Assembly (NCBI RefSeq): GCF_000012865.1
Contig: NC_007503.1
Span: 2,177,001 to 2,241,000, forward strand
DNA from: Carboxydothermus hydrogenoformans Z-2901
Lineage (GTDB): Bacteria > Bacillota > Z-2901 > Carboxydothermales > Carboxydothermaceae
Length of the DNA: 64,000 nucleotides
Direction of reading: 5' to 3'
Shown piece after piece: positions 22,788 to 33,368 of this stretch. The notes below the pieces were generated by a model. The model was not told where the DNA came from and did not search any database. It saw only the letters and a list, made by a program, of their open reading frames with translations. Numbering within the stretch: position 1 is the stretch's first letter; each line of letters opens with the position of its first letter. The position numbers and the translations under genes are program-made.

Positions 22788-22926
22788 GGTATCTACCTCC
22801 TTTTAATTTTTGGTTTCACTATAATATTCGTAAGCTTTTAAAATTTTAAGGGGGTCATAAAAAAATTTTGCAAAAAAAGAGTATTAGGCATAAAATAAAG
22901 TTATCAGATAGAAAGAGGGGATGCGC

Positions 22927-23847
22927 ATGGTGGAAAAAATTTTAGAAACAGAGATTTACCGGGTTAAAATTCCGGTGCCTTTTCCTTTAAAGTATATTAA
23001 CTGCTATTTAACTTTTGATGAAAAAGGCTGGTATGTTATCGATACCGGAATCAACTATCCTGATGCTCAAGCCGCCTGGGAAAAAGTAGTTACTGATTTA
23101 GGGCTTAAGTGGGAAAATTTAAAAACCATTTACTTAACCCACTACCACCCGGACCATTACGGCCTTGCCGGCTACATGCAGCAGAAATCCCGGGCCCGGG
23201 TTTACATGGCACCGCAGGAGTTTACCGCAGCCCTGGGCTTTTTTGTAAAAGACCCGCAAGAGATTTATTCCAAATTTGCCGAGTTTTACTTACAAGCTGG
23301 AGTACCCGAAGAAAAAAGCCGGGAAATACTTTTCCACACAACCAGAAACCGGGAAATGACCGCTCCTCATCCGGAAGTAACTTTCCTGGCCCCCGGGCAA
23401 AAAGTACCCTTTGGTAAATACCTGTTAACCACTTACTTTCATCCGGGGCATTCACCCTCCCATCTTACCCTGCACTTAGAGGAGTTGGGGCTTTTATTTT
23501 CCGGAGACCATCTCTTAGAAAGAATATCATCTAACATCAGCTACTGGCCGATGTACACCGGTCAAAATCCTTTGCAAGATTATTTAAAGAGCTTAGAAGC
23601 CTTAAAAAATCTCAAGGTAGATTTAGTCCTCCCCGGTCACGGCAATACCTTTTCTAATATGTTAGGAAGAATTGATGAACTTTTTGCTCACCATGAGGAA
23701 AGACTTAAGGAAATTAAAAAATTAACTGCTGAAGGACTAAATCCTTATGAAATAACCCTTAAAATTTTCGGGGAAAATCTTAGCCCCCATGAACTCCGCT
23801 TTGCCGTGGCTGAGGTAATTGCTCACCAGATTTATCTTAAAAATTAA
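22927..23847 (+). CDS. Metallo-beta-lactamase-fold hydrolase
   Basis: 306 residues from the ATG at 22927; GAGGGG has a good 6-base spacing to it and none to the ATG at 22921. Metal ligands: THYHPDHYG (HxHxDH), GHSPSHL, FSGDHLL and PGHGNTF, the complete binuclear-site set. The long C-terminal helices (about 235-306) resemble the winged-helix tail of the LACTB2/YcbL type. The substrate is unknown; many relatives are thioesterases or glyoxalase II-like. Single gene with its own terminator. Confidence 0.88.
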   Translation: MVEKILETEIYRVKIPVPFPLKYINCYLTFDEKGWYVIDTGINYPDAQAAWEKVVTDLGLKWENLKTIYLTHYHPDHYGLAGYMQQKSRARVYMAPQEFTAALGFFVKDPQEIYSKFAEFYLQAGVPEEKSREILFHTTRNREMTAPHPEVTFLAPGQKVPFGKYLLTTYFHPGHSPSHLTLHLEELGLLFSGDHLLERISSNISYWPMYTGQNPLQDYLKSLEALKNLKVDLVLPGHGNTFSNMLGRIDELFAHHEERLKEIKKLTAEGLNPYEITLKIFGENLSPHELRFAVAEVIAHQIYLKN

Positions 23848-23881
23848 AGGACTTAGGGCTTAATGCCATAAGTCCTTTTTA
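23846..23881 (+). terminator. Rho-independent terminator after the MBL-fold gene
   Basis: AAAGGACTTA (23846-23855) pairs with TAAGTCCTTT (23869-23878), followed by TTTAT. Confidence 0.85.
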
Positions 23882-23902
23882 TATATTTTTATCAGGCGAA
23901 GC

Positions 23903-24072
23903 TTTTTTGTCCCCCTGCCTGAAATCAACGACCTTGAATCTTTTAACCGGGAACTTTTGCAAAAATCCTTGAAATACCTGGAAAAACCCACTATGAAAAA
24001 CAGCAATAAATCCGGGATTTATTTGCCGAAGACCAACAGCAGTTAAAAATGTTACCGCTACTAATGCCCCTC
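23903..24072 (+). pseudogene. Fragment of an IS21-type transposase (IstA)
   Basis: One frame reads FVPLPEINDLESFNRELLQK, and a second frame after one shift reads IRDLFAEDQQQLKMLPL. In order these match the segment of IstA that precedes the C-terminal PLP-rich region. There is a frameshift and a stop between them, and no element ends or istB are seen. About 100 bases further on nothing else is recognisable. Confidence 0.6.
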
Positions 24073-24171
24073 CACCTCCACTAATTCCCCGTTGATATGC
24101 CGTTTAAGGTAACGGTATGTCTTGCCACCCCTATATTTATCTTAATAAAGGAATCACCCTTGTTGTATTAA

Positions 24172-24204
24172 TAAAAAATCACCGCAAGAAAATTCCTGCG
24201 GTGA
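24172..24204 (-). terminator. Terminator of the serine/threonine operon
   Basis: On the minus strand TCACCGCA pairs with TGCGGTGA around a 10-base loop (24179-24204), followed by TTTTTTATTA. It stands just after the permease stop. Confidence 0.88.
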
Positions 24205-24205
24205 C

Positions 24206-25600
24206 TTAGATAGCTTCTTCTTTTATTTTTTTTACTTCTGGAACTTGTTTTTTATCTATTCCAAAAACATAATAACTTATAATAATTAATGCCATAAATG
24301 CCGCTCCAATGATTAGCGATAGTCTGGTATCGCTATTTAACCACATGCCAACTAATACTAGTACCAAGAAGATAATCGTAAGGTAATTGCTGTAAGGTGA
24401 AAGTGGAGCTTTAAATGGGTGATCTTTTATTTCATTATCTTTAAGTTTTCTAAATTTAAGTTGACTGATAAGTATTACAAACCAAGGCATCATACCCGGT
24501 AATACGCTAGCACTATAAATATATACAAAAAGTTTTTGTGGAGCTATATAGTTTAAAGCTACTCCAATTAGCAAGCACGCTATTGTTACTAAAAGGCTAT
24601 TGACAGGTACCCCAGAAGGAGATACCTTGGCTAAAAATTTTGGAGCTTGGCCATTTTGGCTTAATGTATATAACATTCTTGCAGAACTATAAATACCACT
24701 GTTACAACCAGATAAGGCAGCAGTTAAAACTACAAAGTTTATGATACTTGCTGCAGCAGGAATACCTACTTTAGCAAAGGTCAAAACAAATGGGCTACCA
24801 ATGGTCCCCAACTTATTCCATGGATAAAGGGCGACAATTACAAAAATGGCCCCAATATAAAAGATTAGTATTCGCCATGTGATATTTTGAACTGCCCTTC
24901 TTAGAGTTCTTTGTGGATCTTTTGCTTCGCCGGCTGTAACACCGACCAATTCAACCCCTTGGAAAGCTGCAACTACAAGACAAAGGGCAAACAGGAATCC
25001 TTTTATACCATTTGGGAAGAAGCCGCCATGAATATATAAATTTTCTAATCCAATGGGGCGACCATGGTTGCCAAATCCGAAAAAGATCATTCCTATCCCC
25101 AAAATAATCATTACTACTATTGTCACCACTTTAATAAGCGCAAACCAGAATTCAAATTCTCCATAGTACTTAACTGCAGCTAAGTTTGCCGTACCTACTA
25201 TCAAAATTGCTATTAGGCCTGGTACCCATTGAGGCAATGTTGGAAACCAAAATTTCATATAAATGCCTACGGCTGTTACCTCCGACATTCCTACCGCTAC
25301 CCACATAAACCAGTAACTCCAAGCAGTAAGATAACCCCATAAAGGACCGATGTACTTGTGGGCATAAGTTGCAAAGGAGCCGGTGATTGGTTCAATGTAA
25401 AGCATTTCACCTATAGTACGCATTATGAAAAATATGAAGATACCCGCTATAATGTAAGCTAAAATTACAGACGGACCTGCCCATTTCAAGGTACTTGCTG
25501 AACCCATGAATAAACCTACTCCAATGGTCCCTCCTAAAGCAATTAACTCAATGTGCCTTGCCTCTAAACCTCTTTTTAATTCTTTTTCAGTTTCTACCAT
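24206..25600 (-). CDS. Amino acid permease, APC family (probable serine/threonine uptake)
   Basis: 464 residues with twelve predicted membrane helices. The N-terminus [20 protein letters not shown] then [18 protein letters not shown] is the AAT/APC amino acid transporter signature, followed by [20 protein letters not shown]. This is a proton- or sodium-coupled symporter of the inner membrane. It is the last gene of the operon with serine and threonine deaminases, so L-serine or L-threonine is the most likely substrate, by inference. A 47-base gap separates it from sdaAA. Confidence 0.88.
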
Positions 25601-25647
25601 TTATACTTCCTCCTTTTATTAAAATTTTGAATTATACTTCCCGAAAA

Positions 25648-26541
25648 CTACCATTTATTACCAATCAGGTTTTGCTTGTATATTTTAGCACTAATGACTT
25701 TACCTGTAGGGGTAGCCGCAAGCCCTCCCAGAGCCGTCTCCTTTAAAGATACAGGAAGCGCCCGCCCAATTTCCCCCATTGCATCAATCACTTCATCAAA
25801 AGGAATAGCTGAAACAATTCCCGCTAAAGCCATATCTGCTGCCGCTAAGGCTTGTACCGCCGCCGCAACATTACGCTTTACGCAGGGAACTTCCACTAAA
25901 CCCGCCACCGGATCACAAACTAAACCAAGCATTCCTTTTAAGGCTATGGCTCCTGCATGAACTGCCTGCTCTGGAGTTCCTCCCATTAATTCAGCAGCAG
26001 CAACTGCAGCCATTGCTGCAGCCGAACCACATTCTGCCTGACAGCCTCCCTGGGCTCCGGAAAGAGAAGCTTTATGGGCAATAACTACTCCCACCGCTCC
26101 AGCAGCGTATAACCCTTCAACCACTTTTTCTTCGGGAATACTATACTCTTCCATTAAACTTAACAGCACTCCCGGTAAAACCCCTGCAGAACCTGCTGTA
26201 GGAGCTGCCACAATTAAACCCATGGAAGCATTGGCTTCACTTACAGCTAAAGCATAAGTAATTGCTTTACCAAAAACCCCCAAGGCTAAATTTTTCCCTT
26301 CATCCAGCCGTTTTTTATATTTAACCGCCTGGCCACCCACCAACCCTCCTACCGAAGGTTTTCCGGTAAGCCCTTCCGAAATCGCCTCTTTCATCACTAA
26401 AAGCCTTTTTTGCATAATAGCAATTAATTCTTCCTCAGGAACATCCCGATCTTTAGCTTCCAACAGCAATGCTGTCCCTCCTAAGGTTTGGCCAAGCTTT
26501 TTAGCTTCATTAACTAACTGTTCTACCGATTCAAGATACAT
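25648..26541 (-). CDS. sdaAA: L-serine dehydratase, alpha subunit
   Basis: 297 residues from the ATG at 26541, which has AAGGAGG upstream. Typical features: SVGGLVGGQAVKYKKRLDEG, APTAGSAGVLPGVL, the Cys-containing GAQGGCQAECGSAAAMAAVA and GLVCDPVAGLVEVPC. These Cys hold the oxygen-sensitive [4Fe-4S] cluster that activates L-serine for deamination to pyruvate and ammonia. It works with the beta subunit encoded just upstream (10-base gap). Confidence 0.94.
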   Translation of the reverse strand: MYLESVEQLVNEAKKLGQTLGGTALLLEAKDRDVPEEELIAIMQKRLLVMKEAISEGLTGKPSVGGLVGGQAVKYKKRLDEGKNLALGVFGKAITYALAVSEANASMGLIVAAPTAGSAGVLPGVLLSLMEEYSIPEEKVVEGLYAAGAVGVVIAHKASLSGAQGGCQAECGSAAAMAAVAAAELMGGTPEQAVHAGAIALKGMLGLVCDPVAGLVEVPCVKRNVAAAVQALAAADMALAGIVSAIPFDEVIDAMGEIGRALPVSLKETALGGLAATPTGKVISAKIYKQNLIGNKW

Positions 26542-26551
26542 AGCATCCTCC

Positions 26552-27208
26552 TTACAGCGGGGGAATGGTAAAGCCACCATTTATCCCTGGAAGTCTTTTA
26601 ATTTCCCATAATGTTTCTTCATCAACCGGCTGGTCGGTTTCAATGACCATTAACGCCTCAGCCCCTTTTTGCTGCCTGGAAACACTCATTTGAGCAATGT
26701 TAATTCCGTGCCATGCTAAAACCGATGTTACCTTGGCAACTGCTCCTGGACGGTCAGCATGGGGGACCACTAAAGTTGGGTACTTGGCAGTAATTTTTAC
26801 AGGATAACCATTAATACCGGTAATTAACACTGCACCACCACCGATAGAACTTCCGGTAATCGTAGCTTTATTTTTCGCCCCAGTCAACTCCATATATACC
26901 GTATTAGGGTGAGCTTCGGGCAGTTCTATGGGCAAGAATTCATACTTTAATCCCCGTTCTTCAGCAATTTTTAAACTCTCCCGTATCCGCGAATCATCGG
27001 TATCAAATCCTAACAATCCCGCAATAAGCGCCCGGTCCGTACCGTGCCCTCGATACGTTTCCTTAAAAGAGCCATGCAAGTAGATTTTCGCCTTTTGCGG
27101 TACCTCCCCTAACACCAGCCTTCCTACTTTTCCCAATCTCACCGCTCCAGCGGTATGAGAGCTTGACGGCCCAATCATTACCGGTCCAATAATATCTAAA
27201 ATATCCAT
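26552..27208 (-). CDS. sdaAB: L-serine dehydratase, beta subunit (with ACT domain)
   Basis: 218 residues. The N-terminal half has the family motif IGPSSSHTAGAVRLG and LHGSFKETYRGHGTDRAL. Residues about 145-218 are an ACT domain (TLVVPHADRPGAVAKVTSVL), which commonly binds amino acids and regulates activity. It is paired with sdaAA downstream. An 81-base gap to the threonine ammonia-lyase gene may contain a secondary promoter, but none is obvious. Confidence 0.94.
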   Translation of the reverse strand: MDILDIIGPVMIGPSSSHTAGAVRLGKVGRLVLGEVPQKAKIYLHGSFKETYRGHGTDRALIAGLLGFDTDDSRIRESLKIAEERGLKYEFLPIELPEAHPNTVYMELTGAKNKATITGSSIGGGAVLITGINGYPVKITAKYPTLVVPHADRPGAVAKVTSVLAWHGINIAQMSVSRQQKGAEALMVIETDQPVDEETLWEIKRLPGINGGFTIPPL

Positions 27209-27289
27209 CTTTCCTTTCCTACCTTTTCGCTAACTTAAACTAAATCTCAATCCGGTTGGCTACTTGTACCAATTTATTTAAATTCTGCA

Positions 27290-28519
27290 TTATACATCCA
27301 ATGAAGTAAGCGTTGGGGAAATATTGACAAAATAATGGTGCTGTTTTAAAAGACTTTGAATCTCTTCAACCTGTTCAGGTTCAGCTGTTTCAAGCTCCAA
27401 TTCTACCTGAGCCGAACCCAATGGGACATTTATAGCTTCTCGATTGTGAATTACTGATAACACGTTGGCTCCTGTGCTGGCAATTATCTGGAGTAATTGG
27501 CTTAGAGTTCCTGGCTTGTCCGGAATAACGGTATTCAAGAAAATTTTTCTGCCATCCTTTACTAAACCTCTGTTAATAATGCGTGATAAAAGATTTACGT
27601 CAATATTTCCACCACTTATAAGTGCTACAATTTTACTTTTTTTATAATGAGATAATCGATTTAAAACAGCTGCAACGGATACCGCTCCAGCCCCTTCAGC
27701 TACGGTTTTCGCCCTTTCCATCAAAAACAATATAGCACTAGCGATTTCATCTTCATCAACAGTAACAATATCATCTACATAATGTTTTACAATTTCAAAA
27801 GTTAAGTCCCCAGGGTTTCTAACCGCAATACCATCAGCAATTGTGGGGTGGCCACTTATATTTGTAAGTTGTCCTCGGGCTAATGACTCTGCCATGGAAG
27901 GCATATTTTTAGCTTGAACACCAATAACATGCACCTTTGGTCTTAAGTTTTTTATGGCAACTGCAATTCCTGCAATTAAACCACCACCTCCGATAGGCAC
28001 TACAACTACTTCCACATCTGGTAAATCTTCTAAAATTTCTAACGCTATAGTTCCCTGACCTGCAATAACTTGTGGATCATTAAATGGATGAATGAAGGTA
28101 GCTTTTGTTTCTAACTGAATTCGTTTAGCTTCTTCATACGCTTCATCATAAACGTTACCATGCAATACTACTTTTGCTCCATATTGACTTGTAGCCTTTA
28201 TTTTGGACAATGGAGCGTGTCTTGGCATGACAATAGTGGAACGGATTCCATAAAGGGTTGCTGCCAGAGCTACACCTTGGGCGTGGTTGCCAGCAGATGA
28301 AGCAACAACTCCTCTTTTCTTTTCATTTTCACTTAAACTCGCTATTTTATAATAAGCCCCTCTTAACTTAAATGAACCAGTACGCTGTAAGTTTTCCATT
28401 TTTAAATAGATATGGTTACCAGTCATTTCACTTAGAGTGGTATTATACACGAGAGGTGTCTTGTGGGCAATTTTGCCTAAAATTTCACTGGCTTTTTTTA
28501 CTTCTTCTAGTGAAACCAT
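27290..28519 (-). CDS. ilvA: Threonine ammonia-lyase (threonine/serine dehydratase) with C-terminal ACT domain
   Basis: 409 residues. PLP enzyme of fold type II: the PLP lysine is in RTGSFKLRGAYYK (about residue 50), the phosphate loop is VPIGGGGLIAG, and SSAGNHAQGVALAA binds substrate. The C-terminal 75 residues form an ACT domain (NTVIPDKPGTLSQLLQIIAS). It deaminates L-threonine to 2-oxobutanoate. The length and single ACT domain fit the TdcB/IlvA hybrid class common in Firmicutes; catabolic use is favoured by the operon (ridA upstream, serine dehydratase and permease downstream). Confidence 0.92.
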   Translation of the reverse strand: MVSLEEVKKASEILGKIAHKTPLVYNTTLSEMTGNHIYLKMENLQRTGSFKLRGAYYKIASLSENEKKRGVVASSAGNHAQGVALAATLYGIRSTIVMPRHAPLSKIKATSQYGAKVVLHGNVYDEAYEEAKRIQLETKATFIHPFNDPQVIAGQGTIALEILEDLPDVEVVVVPIGGGGLIAGIAVAIKNLRPKVHVIGVQAKNMPSMAESLARGQLTNISGHPTIADGIAVRNPGDLTFEIVKHYVDDIVTVDEDEIASAILFLMERAKTVAEGAGAVSVAAVLNRLSHYKKSKIVALISGGNIDVNLLSRIINRGLVKDGRKIFLNTVIPDKPGTLSQLLQIIASTGANVLSVIHNREAINVPLGSAQVELELETAEPEQVEEIQSLLKQHHYFVNISPTLTSLDV

Positions 28520-28541
28520 GAATTTTCACCTTCTAATGAAT

Positions 28542-28919
28542 TTATTTACAAGCAACAACTTCTACTTCTACCAGCGCGCCTTTTGGCAAACTAGCAACAG
28601 CTATGCATGAACGTGCCGGAAAAACCTCACCAAAATATTCACTGTAAATTTTATTCACAGTAGTAAAGTCATCCATATTGGTAATAAAAATTGTAGTTTT
28701 AACCACATGGCTAAATTCCATACCCGCTGCAGATAAGATCTGCCTTATATTTTCCATTGCCTGTTTTATTTGGGCTTCAACTCCTCCTGGTACAAGTTCA
28801 CCAGTCTGAGGATTAATACCAATTTGACCAGAGACAAATAGAAATCCATTTACCTTTATAGCCTGAGAATAGGGACCAATAGCTTGTGGCGCTTTGCTGG
28901 TGTTAATAACTTCTTTCAT
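28542..28919 (-). CDS. ridA: RidA family enamine/imine deaminase
   Basis: 125 residues. SKAPQAIGPYSQAIKVNGFL, FVSGQIGINPQTGEL and PARSCIAVASLPKGALVEVE contain the family's catalytic Arg and conserved Gly. RidA hydrolyses the reactive 2-aminoacrylate and 2-aminocrotonate formed by serine and threonine dehydratases. It sits exactly where that is useful, between the regulator (ATGA overlap) and ilvA. Confidence 0.94.
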   Translation of the reverse strand: MKEVINTSKAPQAIGPYSQAIKVNGFLFVSGQIGINPQTGELVPGGVEAQIKQAMENIRQILSAAGMEFSHVVKTTIFITNMDDFTTVNKIYSEYFGEVFPARSCIAVASLPKGALVEVEVVACK

Positions 28920-29590
28920 TTCTCATCCCTCTTCTTATAATTGTTTAGATACCTATATATTGTACTTTCCGAGGTTTTTAGATATTTTGCAAGTTCGGTT
29001 ACTGCACCTTTTAATAAAAAGAAGCCTTTATCATTTAATTTTTGGACAATTTCTATTTTTTCTTCTTGTGACAACCGCTCCGGTGGAACGTTGAACTGTT
29101 TAATAGTTTCTTCAATAAGGGATGACATTAAGTCTTCTAAAGATGGGTTCGTAACTTCCAAAAACTCACTTCTTAAATTAATTTTTTGAGCTTGTTTATC
29201 TGTGTCTATATTCATAATAAAGTCGTCAATAAATTTACGTGCTTGTAAAGCAGTACTAAGGTCCACATTTACGCATAACATTCCAACTAATTCACCATTA
29301 TCATCCTTAATGAAAAAAGTAGACGAACGTAACGGTTTTCCATCTTTTGTCCGAGCAGGATAGTTAACCATAGCATCTTGCGTTTGATACAATTTTTCTT
29401 TTAAAAATTTTAGCCCTAAATCGGTAAGCGGTCCTCCCACCTTTCGCCCACTAATATGACCGTTCCGTATTGCAATAATTGAACTCTCTACGTTTGTAAC
29501 ATCGTGTAGAACAACCTCACAGTGTGGCCCGACAATAGCAGCAATGAAATCTACCAAAGGAATAAATCTTTCCAATAACTTTTCCTTCAC
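28916..29590 (-). CDS. YheO/DauR-type transcriptional regulator (PAS-like plus helix-turn-helix)
   Basis: 224 residues. Residues 8-120 are a YheO-like PAS domain: LVDFIAAIVGPHCEVVLHDV, IRNGHISGRKVGGPLTDLGL and SSTFFIKDDNGELVGMLCVN. The C-terminus is a helix-turn-helix (AVTELAKYLKTSESTIYRYL). Relatives include DauR of Pseudomonas, which governs D-amino acid use. As first gene of the serine/threonine operon, it probably senses the substrate and controls the operon. A sharp AT-rich upstream region (29591-29769) should hold the promoter, but no clear sigma-A boxes were found. Confidence 0.88.
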   Translation of the reverse strand: MKEKLLERFIPLVDFIAAIVGPHCEVVLHDVTNVESSIIAIRNGHISGRKVGGPLTDLGLKFLKEKLYQTQDAMVNYPARTKDGKPLRSSTFFIKDDNGELVGMLCVNVDLSTALQARKFIDDFIMNIDTDKQAQKINLRSEFLEVTNPSLEDLMSSLIEETIKQFNVPPERLSQEEKIEIVQKLNDKGFFLLKGAVTELAKYLKTSESTIYRYLNNYKKRDEK

Positions 29591-29769
29591 CTTATCCCCC
29601 CTCAGTGAGATTATTTGTGTTGTTAGTAATTTTGAAAATAATTTTACCTTTTATGCCAAATTTTTTTCACAGAAATAATTCTGCATAAAAATAAAAAATC
29701 CTTCTTATAATAAAAATTTTTTTGCAACTTAAAAATTAGTAATCAACGTATTTTTTAAAATTATCAATA

Positions 29770-30024
29770 TTATTTGCAAAAAAAAATAACTGCTTTTGTT
29801 GTAGTAGTTGCTGTATAAGTGTTACCGTCTTTACTGATTTCAACACTTAACGTTTGCCCATTATCTGGTGCAGGATTAACCCTAACTTCCAACGGATTGT
29901 CTTGTGTTAACAGAAAGCCACCTGCCAAATAAGCATCTGTTGGCGTATCAGCCAAGACAATTGTAGATGTTGCAAATAACAGCAATAATGCACCCGTGAG
30001 TCTGCACCCATGCCGGGCGCACAC
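29770..30024 (-). pseudogene. Short secreted-protein-like frame, probably a remnant
   Basis: 84 codons from a GTG with no ribosome site. A hydrophobic stretch GALLLLFATSTIVLA resembles a signal peptide, followed by a beta-rich segment (PLEVRVNPAPDNGQTLSVEI, then a Thr run). It lies between a terminator and the regulator's upstream region and ends in AT-rich sequence. I cannot assign a family; it may be the tail or relic of a larger exported protein. Confidence 0.3.
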
Positions 30025-30028
30025 ATAT

Positions 30029-30052
30029 AAAAAGCGAGGTGTACTACCTCGC
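30029..30052 (-). terminator. Terminator after the 177-residue membrane protein gene
   Basis: Minus strand: GCGAGGT pairs with ACCTCGC over a 5-base loop (30034-30052), followed by TTTTT. It lies ten bases past the stop. Confidence 0.85.
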
Positions 30053-30061
30053 CTTTTCCTT

Positions 30062-30595
30062 TTAATCCATATGTTGTTCAGCTTCCTGATGTCCGTGAGT
30101 AATGACTTCAGGATTTTTTGCTAAGTCCTGAAGATAGGTCCAAGAGGCAAAAGCTAAGGTTAAAATAACAACCCCGGCAATTAACTTTTCTTTTAATTTC
30201 GGCTTAATACCATGTTTTACCGTAAAGCTAATCAGCGAAATAACTAAGCCTGCAGGTATTAAGTAACTGGCATAAGCCGGTTCTTCATCAAAATGCTGAA
30301 TACCCCCACTCATCATCCCTATACCTACCGATAAAAACAATGAAAATAGTAAAAACTTCACCGTTTCCGTACCACTTAATTCTCGCCTGTTTAATTTCAC
30401 CTCATAAAGATATGAGGCAATCACGAAAAGCACTATACCTATACTCATGATCAAAGAATATCGAGCAGGATTTAAAGGCATGTGGACTATAGAACCGGAA
30501 ATAAGCCCCATTCCAAGAAAATAAAAGGCATAACTAAAATACGGAAACAAAACCTTTTGCCAGGAATTTTGGAAAGAATGATTGTTGATTTCCAT
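30062..30595 (-). CDS. Membrane protein with an internal duplication carrying conserved His
   Basis: 177 residues and about five membrane helices. Two related segments are visible: LGMGLISGSIVHMPLNPARY (about 27-46) and VGIGMMSGGIQHFDEEPAYA (about 91-110). Each has G-x-x-S-G-x-I-x-H at a helix end, so the protein looks like a tandem duplication with one His per half. The tail HGHQEAEQHMD is rich in His. Such His could bind a metal or heme, but no known family was recognised. It is divergent from the Met/His-rich protein and polyferredoxin genes, with a shared 186-base regulatory gap. Confidence 0.75.
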   Translation of the reverse strand: MEINNHSFQNSWQKVLFPYFSYAFYFLGMGLISGSIVHMPLNPARYSLIMSIGIVLFVIASYLYEVKLNRRELSGTETVKFLLFSLFLSVGIGMMSGGIQHFDEEPAYASYLIPAGLVISLISFTVKHGIKPKLKEKLIAGVVILTLAFASWTYLQDLAKNPEVITHGHQEAEQHMD

Positions 30596-30664
30596 CCCGC
30601 ACCTCCCTATTTTTTTACACTAACTTATAATTAACAGCAAACTTTTACGGATCCTTAATCAAAA

Positions 30665-30707
30665 TGTTACAAAACTACTACAACTTATAGTTTTAATTTT
30701 TGTAACA
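30665..30707. promoter_or_regulatory. Long inverted repeat in the divergent gap
   Basis: TGTTACAAAA at 30665-30674 and TTTTGTAACA at 30698-30707 are perfect inverted repeats. Nested inside are AAAACTA and TAGTTTT (30671-30677 and 30688-30694), extending the pairing. It stands midway between the divergent starts at 30595 and 30782 and may be a regulator site controlling both. Confidence 0.45.
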
Positions 30708-30781
30708 CTTTCGTTATGTTTTTTAAACATCTTTTTGCTAAAGTAAGCAACAGCAAAATCTACTACAGGAGGTGATAGGCT

Positions 30782-31168
30782 ATGAAAGCAGCAACAAAAG
30801 TTCTAACTCTTTTAGTACTGTTTATCTTTATTTTAGGTAACATTACGTTGGCCAGCGGCGGGCATGATTCCGTAACTAATGACAGCTCGATGTTCTCGGG
30901 AAATATGGAAATGTCAAAGGATAATATGAATAACAACAAGCAAAACACCTTGTCTGCAGAAAATACGGATATGTCAAATGACAGTACCGATGACCACCAA
31001 CAAAGCGGCATGGATAGCCATGAAGCCAGCGATTCTCACGCATCAAGCGATATCCCTTGGAGTTTTTTAAAAGTTATAGGCATTTTAAATACAGGCATAA
31101 TTTTAACTGGACTTATATCCCGTTATCTTCCCGAAAGAGAGGAGTTGAAAAATGAATCAGGTACTTAA
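30782..31168 (+). CDS. Exported Met/His/Asp-rich protein with C-terminal membrane helix
   Basis: 128 residues. A signal peptide or N-terminal anchor (VLTLLVLFIFILGNITLA) is followed by about 65 low-complexity residues rich in Met, His, Asp, Ser and Asn (SMFSGNMEMSKDNMNNN, then GMDSHEASDSHASSD). A membrane helix closes the protein (FLKVIGILNTGIILTGLI). Met/His-rich exported segments often bind copper or silver; this is inference. AGGAGGTGAT gives a strong start. The stop overlaps the start of the polyferredoxin gene by 17 bases, so the two are translated together. Confidence 0.75.
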   Translation: MKAATKVLTLLVLFIFILGNITLASGGHDSVTNDSSMFSGNMEMSKDNMNNNKQNTLSAENTDMSNDSTDDHQQSGMDSHEASDSHASSDIPWSFLKVIGILNTGIILTGLISRYLPEREELKNESGT

Positions 31169-32474
31169 AAATATCCTTAAAAGCCGCTGGTATCCGGTAA
31201 TTTTCCAGATCATTACATTATTTTTCTTTAGCATTGTTATTTATACTCTAATCACCGGCCCCGCATCACCCCATGATAATTTTGGTACAGCTCTCACCTG
31301 GGTGCTTTGGTGGCCGATAATCCCGTTAATTTTCCTTTTGCTTGGTCGCTTTTGGTGTGCTATCTGCCCCTTTGCCACCATCAATGATTTTGTGCAAAAA
31401 TTTGCTGGAATGAAACTTAAAGTTCCCAACTTTCTTAAAAAGTACGGAATTTGGATTATTGATGCGACCTTTATCATCATAACCTGGTCGGACCACATCT
31501 GGGGAATCGTCGAAAACCCTCGTGGTTCAGGAATCCTGCTTCTTTTAATAACTACCGGTGTTATCTTTTCCGGAGTATTATTTGAAAGGCGTACCTGGTG
31601 CCGTTATCTTTGTTTCTTAGGTGGTCTTGCAGGTAACTATTCCCGAACAGGTATGCTAAAATTACGAGCTACCCCGGATATTTGTAAAAATTGCACCACT
31701 CTTGCTTGCTATAAAGGTAGTAAAAATGCCCCTGGTTGCCCGTTATTTGAGGTTCCTAGAAATATGCAAACCAGCGCAACCTGTAATCTCTGTGGCTATT
31801 GTGTTAAAAATTGTCCAAATGATTCAATAAATATCTCTTTTAAACCCCCTGCCAGTGAACTTTGGTTTATTAAACGGCCACGCCTTGAAGAGTCATTTTT
31901 GGCAATTGTAATTATGGGTATCGTTTTTGTACAGAACCTTACCATGTTAGAAATCTGGCAGAAATGGCAAAAAGCTTTAACTAATATTCTCCACACTGAT
32001 AGTTATCCAGTATTATTTACAGTACTATTTTTAATTGCCATGACCATACCAGTAGTCCTAACCTTAGTTGCAAGTAAAGGTGCCTCTTATGCCAATCGCC
32101 AAAAAACTTGGGAAAATTTCGCTCGCTACGGTTATTCCCTTATTCCTTTAGATTTAGCTGGGCATATAGCTCATAACCTATTTCACCTTTTGGCTGAAGG
32201 AAAATCAATTTATTATACAGGTTTAGCCTTTTTCACCGGCAAAAAATTAGAAGGTATGAGCCCTGCTATTGTGAGCTCTTCGACAATAACCTTTTTGCAA
32301 TATACCATATTGGTATTAGGTGCAATTTTGTCGCTATACACCGCCTGGAAAATCGCTAAAAACAACGAACCTAAAAATACCTTCAATGTTTTCTTACCCT
32401 TCAGTATATTAATTATCATCTTCCTCTTAATAAACATTTACCTCTTTATGCTCCCGATGGCTATGAGAATGTAA
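31152..32474 (+). CDS. Membrane-bound polyferredoxin, NosR/NapH/CcoG-like
   Basis: 440 residues. Five or more N-terminal helices carry the NapH/NosR-type Cys pairs C69/C72 (WCAICPF) and C150/C154 (WCRYLCFLGG). Next comes a ferredoxin section: C178, C181, C186, C196 and C211, C214, C217, C221 (CNLCGYCVKNCP), fit for two [4Fe-4S] clusters. After this are about five more helices. The usual role of this family is to pass electrons from quinols or flavins across the membrane to a periplasmic or assembly protein. The acceptor here is unknown; the Met/His-rich partner suggests a metal-centred one. No Nos or Nap genes are present. Confidence 0.85.
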   Translation: MNQVLKNILKSRWYPVIFQIITLFFFSIVIYTLITGPASPHDNFGTALTWVLWWPIIPLIFLLLGRFWCAICPFATINDFVQKFAGMKLKVPNFLKKYGIWIIDATFIIITWSDHIWGIVENPRGSGILLLLITTGVIFSGVLFERRTWCRYLCFLGGLAGNYSRTGMLKLRATPDICKNCTTLACYKGSKNAPGCPLFEVPRNMQTSATCNLCGYCVKNCPNDSINISFKPPASELWFIKRPRLEESFLAIVIMGIVFVQNLTMLEIWQKWQKALTNILHTDSYPVLFTVLFLIAMTIPVVLTLVASKGASYANRQKTWENFARYGYSLIPLDLAGHIAHNLFHLLAEGKSIYYTGLAFFTGKKLEGMSPAIVSSSTITFLQYTILVLGAILSLYTAWKIAKNNEPKNTFNVFLPFSILIIIFLLINIYLFMLPMAMRM

Positions 32475-32491: not shown

Positions 32492-32525
32492 CAAAAATAC
32501 CCCCATATTTAAGGGGGTATCATCT
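32492..32525. terminator. Bidirectional terminator between convergent genes
   Basis: ATACCCCC (32497-32504) and GGGGGTAT (32513-32520) form a perfect 8-bp stem. T-rich flanks lie on both strands. Confidence 0.85.
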
Positions 32526-33368
32526 TTATTTGGGAAGATCATTTCTTCCGTAAGGCAGCGGGATATACTGCACCGAAGGCCGGCGGCCCTGGGGTTGCGG
32601 ATATAAATCCATAAGTTCATAAATCTCCCGGGGCAGGTCCGTCGACACCGGAAGTCCCAGCTCTTTTAACTGCTGGGCGGAAATGGGATAGTCGTGGGTC
32701 CAGGTTCCCTGGGATAAAAGCTTGGCCACTTCCCGGGCTTTTTCTAAATCCATCTTATCGGACAAAAGCTCCACCACCGTATTTTCCACCTGGGCTAAAG
32801 CTTTTTTAGCTATATCTGCCATAATCAAAGTTCTGTCTTCGACCTTATCGGGACCCTTTTGCTCCACCACTTTGAGAATTGATGCCGCCGGGTATTCCCC
32901 CAGCTGCGGGTCTACCGGCCCGGCTACCGCATTTTCATCCATGACGATTTCATCGGCAGCAAGAGCGATTAAAGTGCCACCGGACATCGCGTAATGGGGA
33001 ATAAACACCGTAACTTTAGCCGGATGTTTTCTTAACGCCTCTGCTATCTGCTCCGCTGCTAACACCAGGCCACCGGGGGTATGGAGCACCAGGTCAATGG
33101 GCATATCATCGGGGGTAAGGCGAATTGCTCGCAGTATCTGCTCCGAATCTTCAATATTGATGTAACGGCTAACGGGAAGGCCAAGAAAACTAAACGTCTC
33201 CTGCCGGTGAATCATGGTTATTAACCGGGACTTTCTCTTCGTTTCAAAATCCCGGATAATTTTAAGCCGTAAAACCTCAATTTTTTGCTGCTTAAACATT
33301 GGAATTAACGACATCAGTAAAAGTAAAAACCAGAAAAAATCAAAAAGAGAAACTTTCAAGCCTCTCAC
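32526..33368 (-). CDS. Membrane-anchored Clp-fold serine protease (SDH proteinase family)
   Basis: 280 residues. One N-terminal membrane helix (SLFDFFWFLLLLMSLIPMF) precedes a Clp/crotonase-like domain: DLVLHTPGGLVLAAEQIAEA, IPHYAMSGGTLIALAADEIV with the nucleophile Ser in the MSGG turn, and GPVDPQLGEYPAASILKVVE. It matches the PF01972 family (serine dehydrogenase proteinase), a membrane-linked protease of unknown target. Codons and GC content match neighbouring genes. It has a 29-base gap to the GGDEF gene upstream and may be cotranscribed with it. Confidence 0.85.
   Translation of the reverse strand: MRGLKVSLFDFFWFLLLLMSLIPMFKQQKIEVLRLKIIRDFETKRKSRLITMIHRQETFSFLGLPVSRYINIEDSEQILRAIRLTPDDMPIDLVLHTPGGLVLAAEQIAEALRKHPAKVTVFIPHYAMSGGTLIALAADEIVMDENAVAGPVDPQLGEYPAASILKVVEQKGPDKVEDRTLIMADIAKKALAQVENTVVELLSDKMDLEKAREVAKLLSQGTWTHDYPISAQQLKELGLPVSTDLPREIYELMDLYPQPQGRRPSVQYIPLPYGRNDLPK

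Follow-up and report, generated by a model that had tools for sequence, protein, structure and literature searches.

A conserved polyferredoxin and Met/His-rich protein pair, with an optional five-helix companion, in a probably copper- or silver-linked membrane locus of Carboxydothermus hydrogenoformans

Little is known of specific cupric reductases in bacteria; CcoG of Rhodobacter capsulatus, a membrane polyferredoxin, was called the first of them (PMC7558416). The E. coli protein YccM was named as a CcoG homologue, and homologues of CcoG exist without a cbb3 oxidase (PMC7558416); Firmicutes such as B. subtilis were reported to be without a CcoG homologue (PMC13344008). The YtkA-type protein CtaK of Bacillus is implicated in CuA assembly (PMC13344008), and DUF305 is the domain of CopM, which binds copper (PMC4335983). 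We examined how these systems compare with three genes, here P1, P2 and P3, within a 64,000-nucleotide stretch (the window) of the C. hydrogenoformans Z-2901 genome, a single contig of 2,401,520 bases. No description of the P1 family or of the P2-P3 pair was found in the open-licence literature.

Layout of the locus

The locus (30062-32474) comprised three open reading frames arranged as two divergent units, P1 on the minus strand and P2 with P3 on the plus strand (Table 1), as the original prediction, drawn from the DNA letters, had described. P1 was assigned to a transcription unit of its own and P2-P3 to a second, because terminator-like hairpins end P1 and P3. The GC-rich palindrome 3' of P3 resembles a metal-repressor (CsoR-type) operator; that assignment was rejected and the palindrome was read as a terminator because it lies, with T-runs, between convergent genes. 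An inverted repeat (TGTTACAAAA...TTTTGTAACA, arms at 30656-30674 and 30698-30716) is present in the divergent promoter region; its right arm and the next 40 nt are kept in the sister species (G002), and it is a possible operator.

Neither a copper nor a denitrification theme was found among the flanking genes checked (a YheO-like regulator, a ClpP-like protease, GGDEF and TauE genes, and others). Between an MBL-fold gene (22921-23847) and P1 lies a block of ~6 kb (23850-30060) with serine and threonine dehydratase-like ORFs, a RidA-like ORF, the YheO-like regulator and a 464-aa ORF. The sister species is without this block at that place, and its MBL-fold gene comes directly after a relic of P1 (L049).

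Table 1. Features of the locus, in window positions; residue numbers are those of the encoded proteins.
Feature	Positions	Strand	Length or remark
Terminator-like hairpin 3' of P1, GCGAGGTAGTACACCTCGC then T-run on the minus strand	30034..30052	-	T-run seen directly in sequence
P1, five-helix membrane protein with internal duplication and outward His-rich tail; own transcription unit	30062..30595	-	177 aa
P1 C-terminal HGH (res 167-169), predicted outside	30089..30097	-	tail HxH in 78/80 relatives
P1 second motif SGGIQH (res 96-101), His101	30293..30310	-	11/11 in first alignment
P1 first motif SGSIVH (res 33-38), His38	30482..30499	-	H38 in 78/80 genome loci, 10/11 in first alignment
Divergent intergenic region with inverted repeat; P2-proximal half shared with sister species G002	30596..30781		
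P2, exported Met/His-rich protein with C-terminal membrane anchor	30782..31168	+	128 aa
P2 low-complexity Met/His/Asp/Ser/Asn region (res 25-92)	30854..31057	+	composition
P2 C-terminal transmembrane anchor (res 94-112)	31061..31117	+	kept in most relatives
P3, membrane polyferredoxin, 17-nt overlap with P2	31152..32474	+	440 aa
P3 membrane-edge CxxC (C69, C72)	31356..31367	+	invariant, 19 sequences
P3 membrane-edge CxxxC (C150, C154)	31599..31613	+	invariant, 19 sequences
P3 ferredoxin segment, two predicted [4Fe-4S] sites (C178,181,186,196; C211,214,217,221)	31683..31817	+	invariant, 19 sequences
P3 HxxHNxxH in C-terminal helix (H338, H341, N342, H345)	32163..32186	+	invariant in P2-linked subfamily
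P3 C-terminal MAMRM, predicted outside	32457..32471	+	M436, R439 invariant
Terminator-like hairpin between convergent P3 and 32526-33368	32497..32520		

P3 and its pairing with P2

P3 matched the Pfam domain Fer4_5 (E 5e-11), and its core aligned with YccM (31% over 130 aa, pairwise E 5e-13). All 12 of its cysteines were invariant among the 19 sequences, C69/C72 and C150/C154 lying at helix ends. Topology was taken from hydropathy and the positive-inside rule because the structure model was unusable (pLDDT 52), and the ferredoxin loop is predicted to be cytoplasmic because it is the most K/R-rich. P3 resembles CcoG, FixG and YccM, likewise membrane polyferredoxins in which two [4Fe-4S] sites are predicted and Cys motifs lie at the membrane edge; it differs in having CxxCP and then CxxxC in place of two CxxxCP, in its extra C-terminal helices with HxxHNxxH, and in the absence of the additional Ig-like domain (FixG_C) of CcoG. 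No match to the curated CcoG or FixG_C models was found down to E 0.1. Wider homologues of P3 retain the Cys pattern at the membrane edge and in the ferredoxin-type motifs but have no HxxHNxxH, so that the His motif belongs to the P2-linked subfamily of P3.

The original prediction had called P3 a NosR/NapH-like polyferredoxin translated in overlap with P2. The overlap was found, and Fer4_5 is common to P3, NapH and NosR; the likeness is otherwise loose, the partial NapH match (E 3e-9) giving 36.8 bits against a TIGR02163 cut-off of 213 and the NosR match 10.9 bits against 1000. P3 is also without an FMN domain and the genome is without a NosZ propeller, and both assignments were rejected. An accessory function of the NosR/NapH/CcoG type, for NosZ, Nap or a heme-copper oxidase, could be argued from Fer4_5, from the partial NapH similarity and from the service of YtkA domains in oxidase copper delivery in Bacillus (PMC13344008); but model searches found neither a COX1-type oxidase nor NosZ in the source genome, and COX1 and NosZ occurred in only 6/17 and 2/17 P3-bearing genomes. 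A nos or cco accessory role is therefore unlikely in the source genome, where these searches largely refute it, and we regard accessory function of this kind as very improbable overall. The prediction that nos and cco genes are not nearby accordingly extends to the whole genome by the NosZ and COX1 models, and the linkage of CcoG to cbb3 oxidase (ccoGHIS) has no counterpart here.

P3 was found in 17 of 398 genomes of the phylum, with at least 53% identity in alignments that cover most or the whole of the protein; the P2-P3 pair was also present in Deinococcus ficus and in a Symbiobacteriaceae MAG, and no P3 was found in viral contigs. In all 20 loci with a readable P3 start, a gene for a secreted or anchored protein with abundant Met, His or both was directly upstream. 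The spacing ranged from a 44-nt overlap to an 18-nt gap, and was 124 nt in the most divergent locus (L067), whose P2-like protein is without an anchor. P2-P3 is a tight conserved pair.

P2 itself is composed of an N-terminal hydrophobic stretch, a low-complexity middle and a C-terminal membrane anchor; the exported, low-complexity, Met/His-rich protein of the original prediction was confirmed, and the anchor is new to it. Residues 25-92 contain 6 Met, 4 His, 15 Ser, 10 Asp and 9 Asn; H+M account for 10 of 68 residues compared to 3.5% in window proteins (binomial P = 1e-4), a modest enrichment. P2-like proteins barely align in sequence, and what was conserved is the Met/His-rich character within a common design: a signal or helix at the N-terminus comes first, then the stretch rich in Met and His, and in most cases a helix at the C-terminus. 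Larger variants carry an inserted YtkA-like domain (PF13115; 29.5 bits against a cut-off of 25.9 in L062, weaker in L065) between signal and anchor, a likeness to the YtkA/CtaK/FixH proteins; window P2 did not match PF13115, and in it the Met/His-rich linker and anchor alone remain. FixG and FixH form a gene pair, of which P3 beside a YtkA-type partner gene is reminiscent.

Proposed function of the P2-P3 pair

The reading that we favour, although we put it slightly short of an even chance, is that P2 and P3 together form a membrane unit of two components that serves copper homeostasis and in which P3, as a CcoG-like reductase, passes electrons to copper on P2. P3 would take up electrons at its cytoplasmic side through two [4Fe-4S] clusters and the membrane-edge cysteines, and its C-terminal His/Met helices would carry them across to copper held at the exterior by P2, the anchored Met/His-rich partner. 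The copper would in this way be converted to Cu(I), or maintained in that state, and could then be handled or exported. P3 would plausibly act like CcoG in this, perhaps facing outward. Copper is the probable metal of P2, although silver or iron would look the same. A CopA-type ATPase is encoded elsewhere in the source genome. If the reading is true, a conserved Fe-S membrane unit with its own copper-type partner operates in oxidase-free Firmicutes, and would hint at the way in which bacteria that have no copper respiratory enzymes manage copper redox chemistry at the cell surface.

Some P3 loci have copper-type neighbours, namely an ATPase of Cu(I) type in L067, a multicopper oxidase in L066 and a DUF305/two-component island in L046; an ATPase at L069 was not counted as copper evidence because it is without the CPx motif. 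For most P3 loci no copper gene was found within 10 kb, and none was found near the window genes. This scarcity of copper genes at many P3 loci, together with the absence of a COX1-type oxidase from most P3-bearing genomes of the phylum, would also suit a conduit that sends electrons outward in general, with Fe(III), quinones or some other exterior acceptor at its end and P2 as a partner that is structural or binds a metal other than copper. Such a conduit is nonetheless unlikely, given the YtkA-type variants of P2, the conservation of the Met/His-rich partner and the D. ficus pair, which is on a plasmid with DUF305 nearby; a cytochrome or porin partner was not seen.

Two-component genes were present in 13 loci on a wider count, and a histidine kinase and response regulator immediately adjoin P2-P3 in six P3 loci (L056, L059, L062-L065). 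P2-P3 could, on this basis, be a redox or metal sensor feeding the nearby two-component system, the more so as fusions to cNMP-binding and AAA-type regulator domains occur among the wider homologues of P3; but the window and most other loci have no adjacent two-component genes, the regulators differ in type (OmpR vs sigma-54) and the sensor fusions are without HxxHNxxH, and we consider a sensor function distinctly unlikely, less so than an accessory one. The fusions (L035-L039, L042) are of ~800 residues and, with domains judged by eye, join a cNMP-binding-like and an AAA-type regulator domain to a P3-type membrane polyferredoxin module; a similar annotation occurs on a Pseudanabaena plasmid. 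They are perhaps a family of redox-sensing regulators.

P1, an optional companion with copper neighbourhoods

Both SG-x-I-x-H repeats predicted for P1 were found (Table 1), its first half aligned with its second (35% over 48 aa, E 8e-8 with no composition correction), and AlphaFold gave the expected five helices (mean pLDDT 91, pTM 0.80). His38 and His101 are predicted at the outer ends of helices 1 and 3, with the HxH tail outward. In the 80-genome set His101 was fixed by construction, being part of the search pattern, of which His38 and the tail HxH were not part; relatives in the first alignment (A1, 11 sequences) were collected without a pattern, and the tail HxH was invariant in alignment A3. 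No PDB fold match had E < 0.001 (the ferritin matches listed were at TM ~0.25), and no meaningful sequence match to the PDB was found. Assignment to DUF6962 (PF22285), a family of unknown function, was rejected, the match being weak (E 1.6e-5; 25.5 bits vs a gathering cut-off of 27) and three other P1 relatives failing to reproduce it; TauE/SafE was likewise rejected (18.5 bits vs 32.6). P1 is an uncharacterised five-helix membrane-protein family.

P1 recurs in copper islands of Streptomyces, Deinococcus, Bacillus and Arthrobacter. Its neighbours on plasmids include CueR, multicopper oxidase, plastocyanin, DUF305, CopA-type ATPases and CsoR-type regulators; no clear copper neighbour was seen for P1 of a Deinococcus (L016) and of a D. 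deserti plasmid (L011). Within ~10 kb of P1, DUF305 was present in 36 of the 80 genomic loci; the corresponding counts were 22 for a metal ATPase, 14 for a four-helix copper protein and 13 for a multicopper oxidase. Twelve of the ATPases near P1 bear CPC and MxxSS, signatures of the Cu(I) type, and another bears CPH. Streptomyces genomes hold 2-6 copies of DUF305, so that chance would place one in ~1% of 20-kb windows, a comparison which is not a formal test because the loci are related. A cyanobacterial relative of P1 is fused to DUF305 (L092:2335-3381), whereas P1 has no DUF305 domain and is a membrane protein with conserved His of its own.

The three genes had been proposed as one unit, of which the P2-P3 pair stands and P1 is not an obligate part. 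P1 lay beside P3 in one of the 80 P1 loci, that of the Symbiobacteriaceae MAG (L069), which has P1 and P2-P3 in the same divergent layout as the window; the named genomes were sampled by P1 only. P3 was present in only one of 17 P1-bearing genomes tested (again that of L069), P3-bearing genomes are mostly without P1, and P1 occurred in ~3 of the 398 phylum genomes compared to 17 for P3. In the sister species P2-P3 is intact and P1 is a relic of its last ~40 codons (L003:1501-1620), a loss of P1 within the genus. An obligate three-gene unit was therefore rejected; with P1 and P3 together only in the window, in L069 and, as a relic, in G002, P1 is an optional companion.

P1 and P2-P3 could also be chance neighbours of unrelated function: they adjoin in only two lineages and one relic, P1 was lost in G002, and the P1 tree, with weak support, does not join the window and L069 lineages as sisters. 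Against this, the same divergent layout recurs in an unrelated MAG although both families are uncommon, and both P1 and P2-P3 carry copper associations; we take chance to be the less likely explanation, with more weight than the conduit. Relatives of P1 do occur apart from the pair, so that P1 falls partly short under the refuting condition set with the original prediction, yet their separate contexts are copper contexts. P1 would be a separate, optional copper-handling membrane protein, presumably binding metal through its two outward-facing His and its His tail.

The copper link is well supported, and the locus is probably copper- or silver-linked, in keeping with the original prediction that a membrane redox unit serves an exterior partner which binds metal and is perhaps linked to copper; the retained P2-P3 linkage and the copper contexts of P1 both speak for it, and the copper link of P1 is stronger than the DNA letters alone could show. 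A bolder form is rather doubtful: that P2-P3 is an unrecognised exterior-facing copper reductase, found also in anaerobic Firmicutes, with Fe-S electrons passing via HxxHNxxH to an anchored Met/His carrier, and P1 a new, widespread copper-binding family with a fold not in the PDB. For P1 the analysis offers a testable role for a recurrent, uncharacterised copper-island family.

On Streptomyces contigs two P1 copies were found ~15-30 kb apart (L123/L144, L124/L145, L121/L140, L101/L147), which suggests paralogous copper-island copies. In Bacillus (L073, L075) a gene for an exported BNR/sortilin-type propeller protein (F510_1955-like) precedes P1, which is followed 3' by a His-rich CPH-type ATPase (L073) or by a DUF1541 lipoprotein with DHSGMDHSGMDMS repeats (L075).
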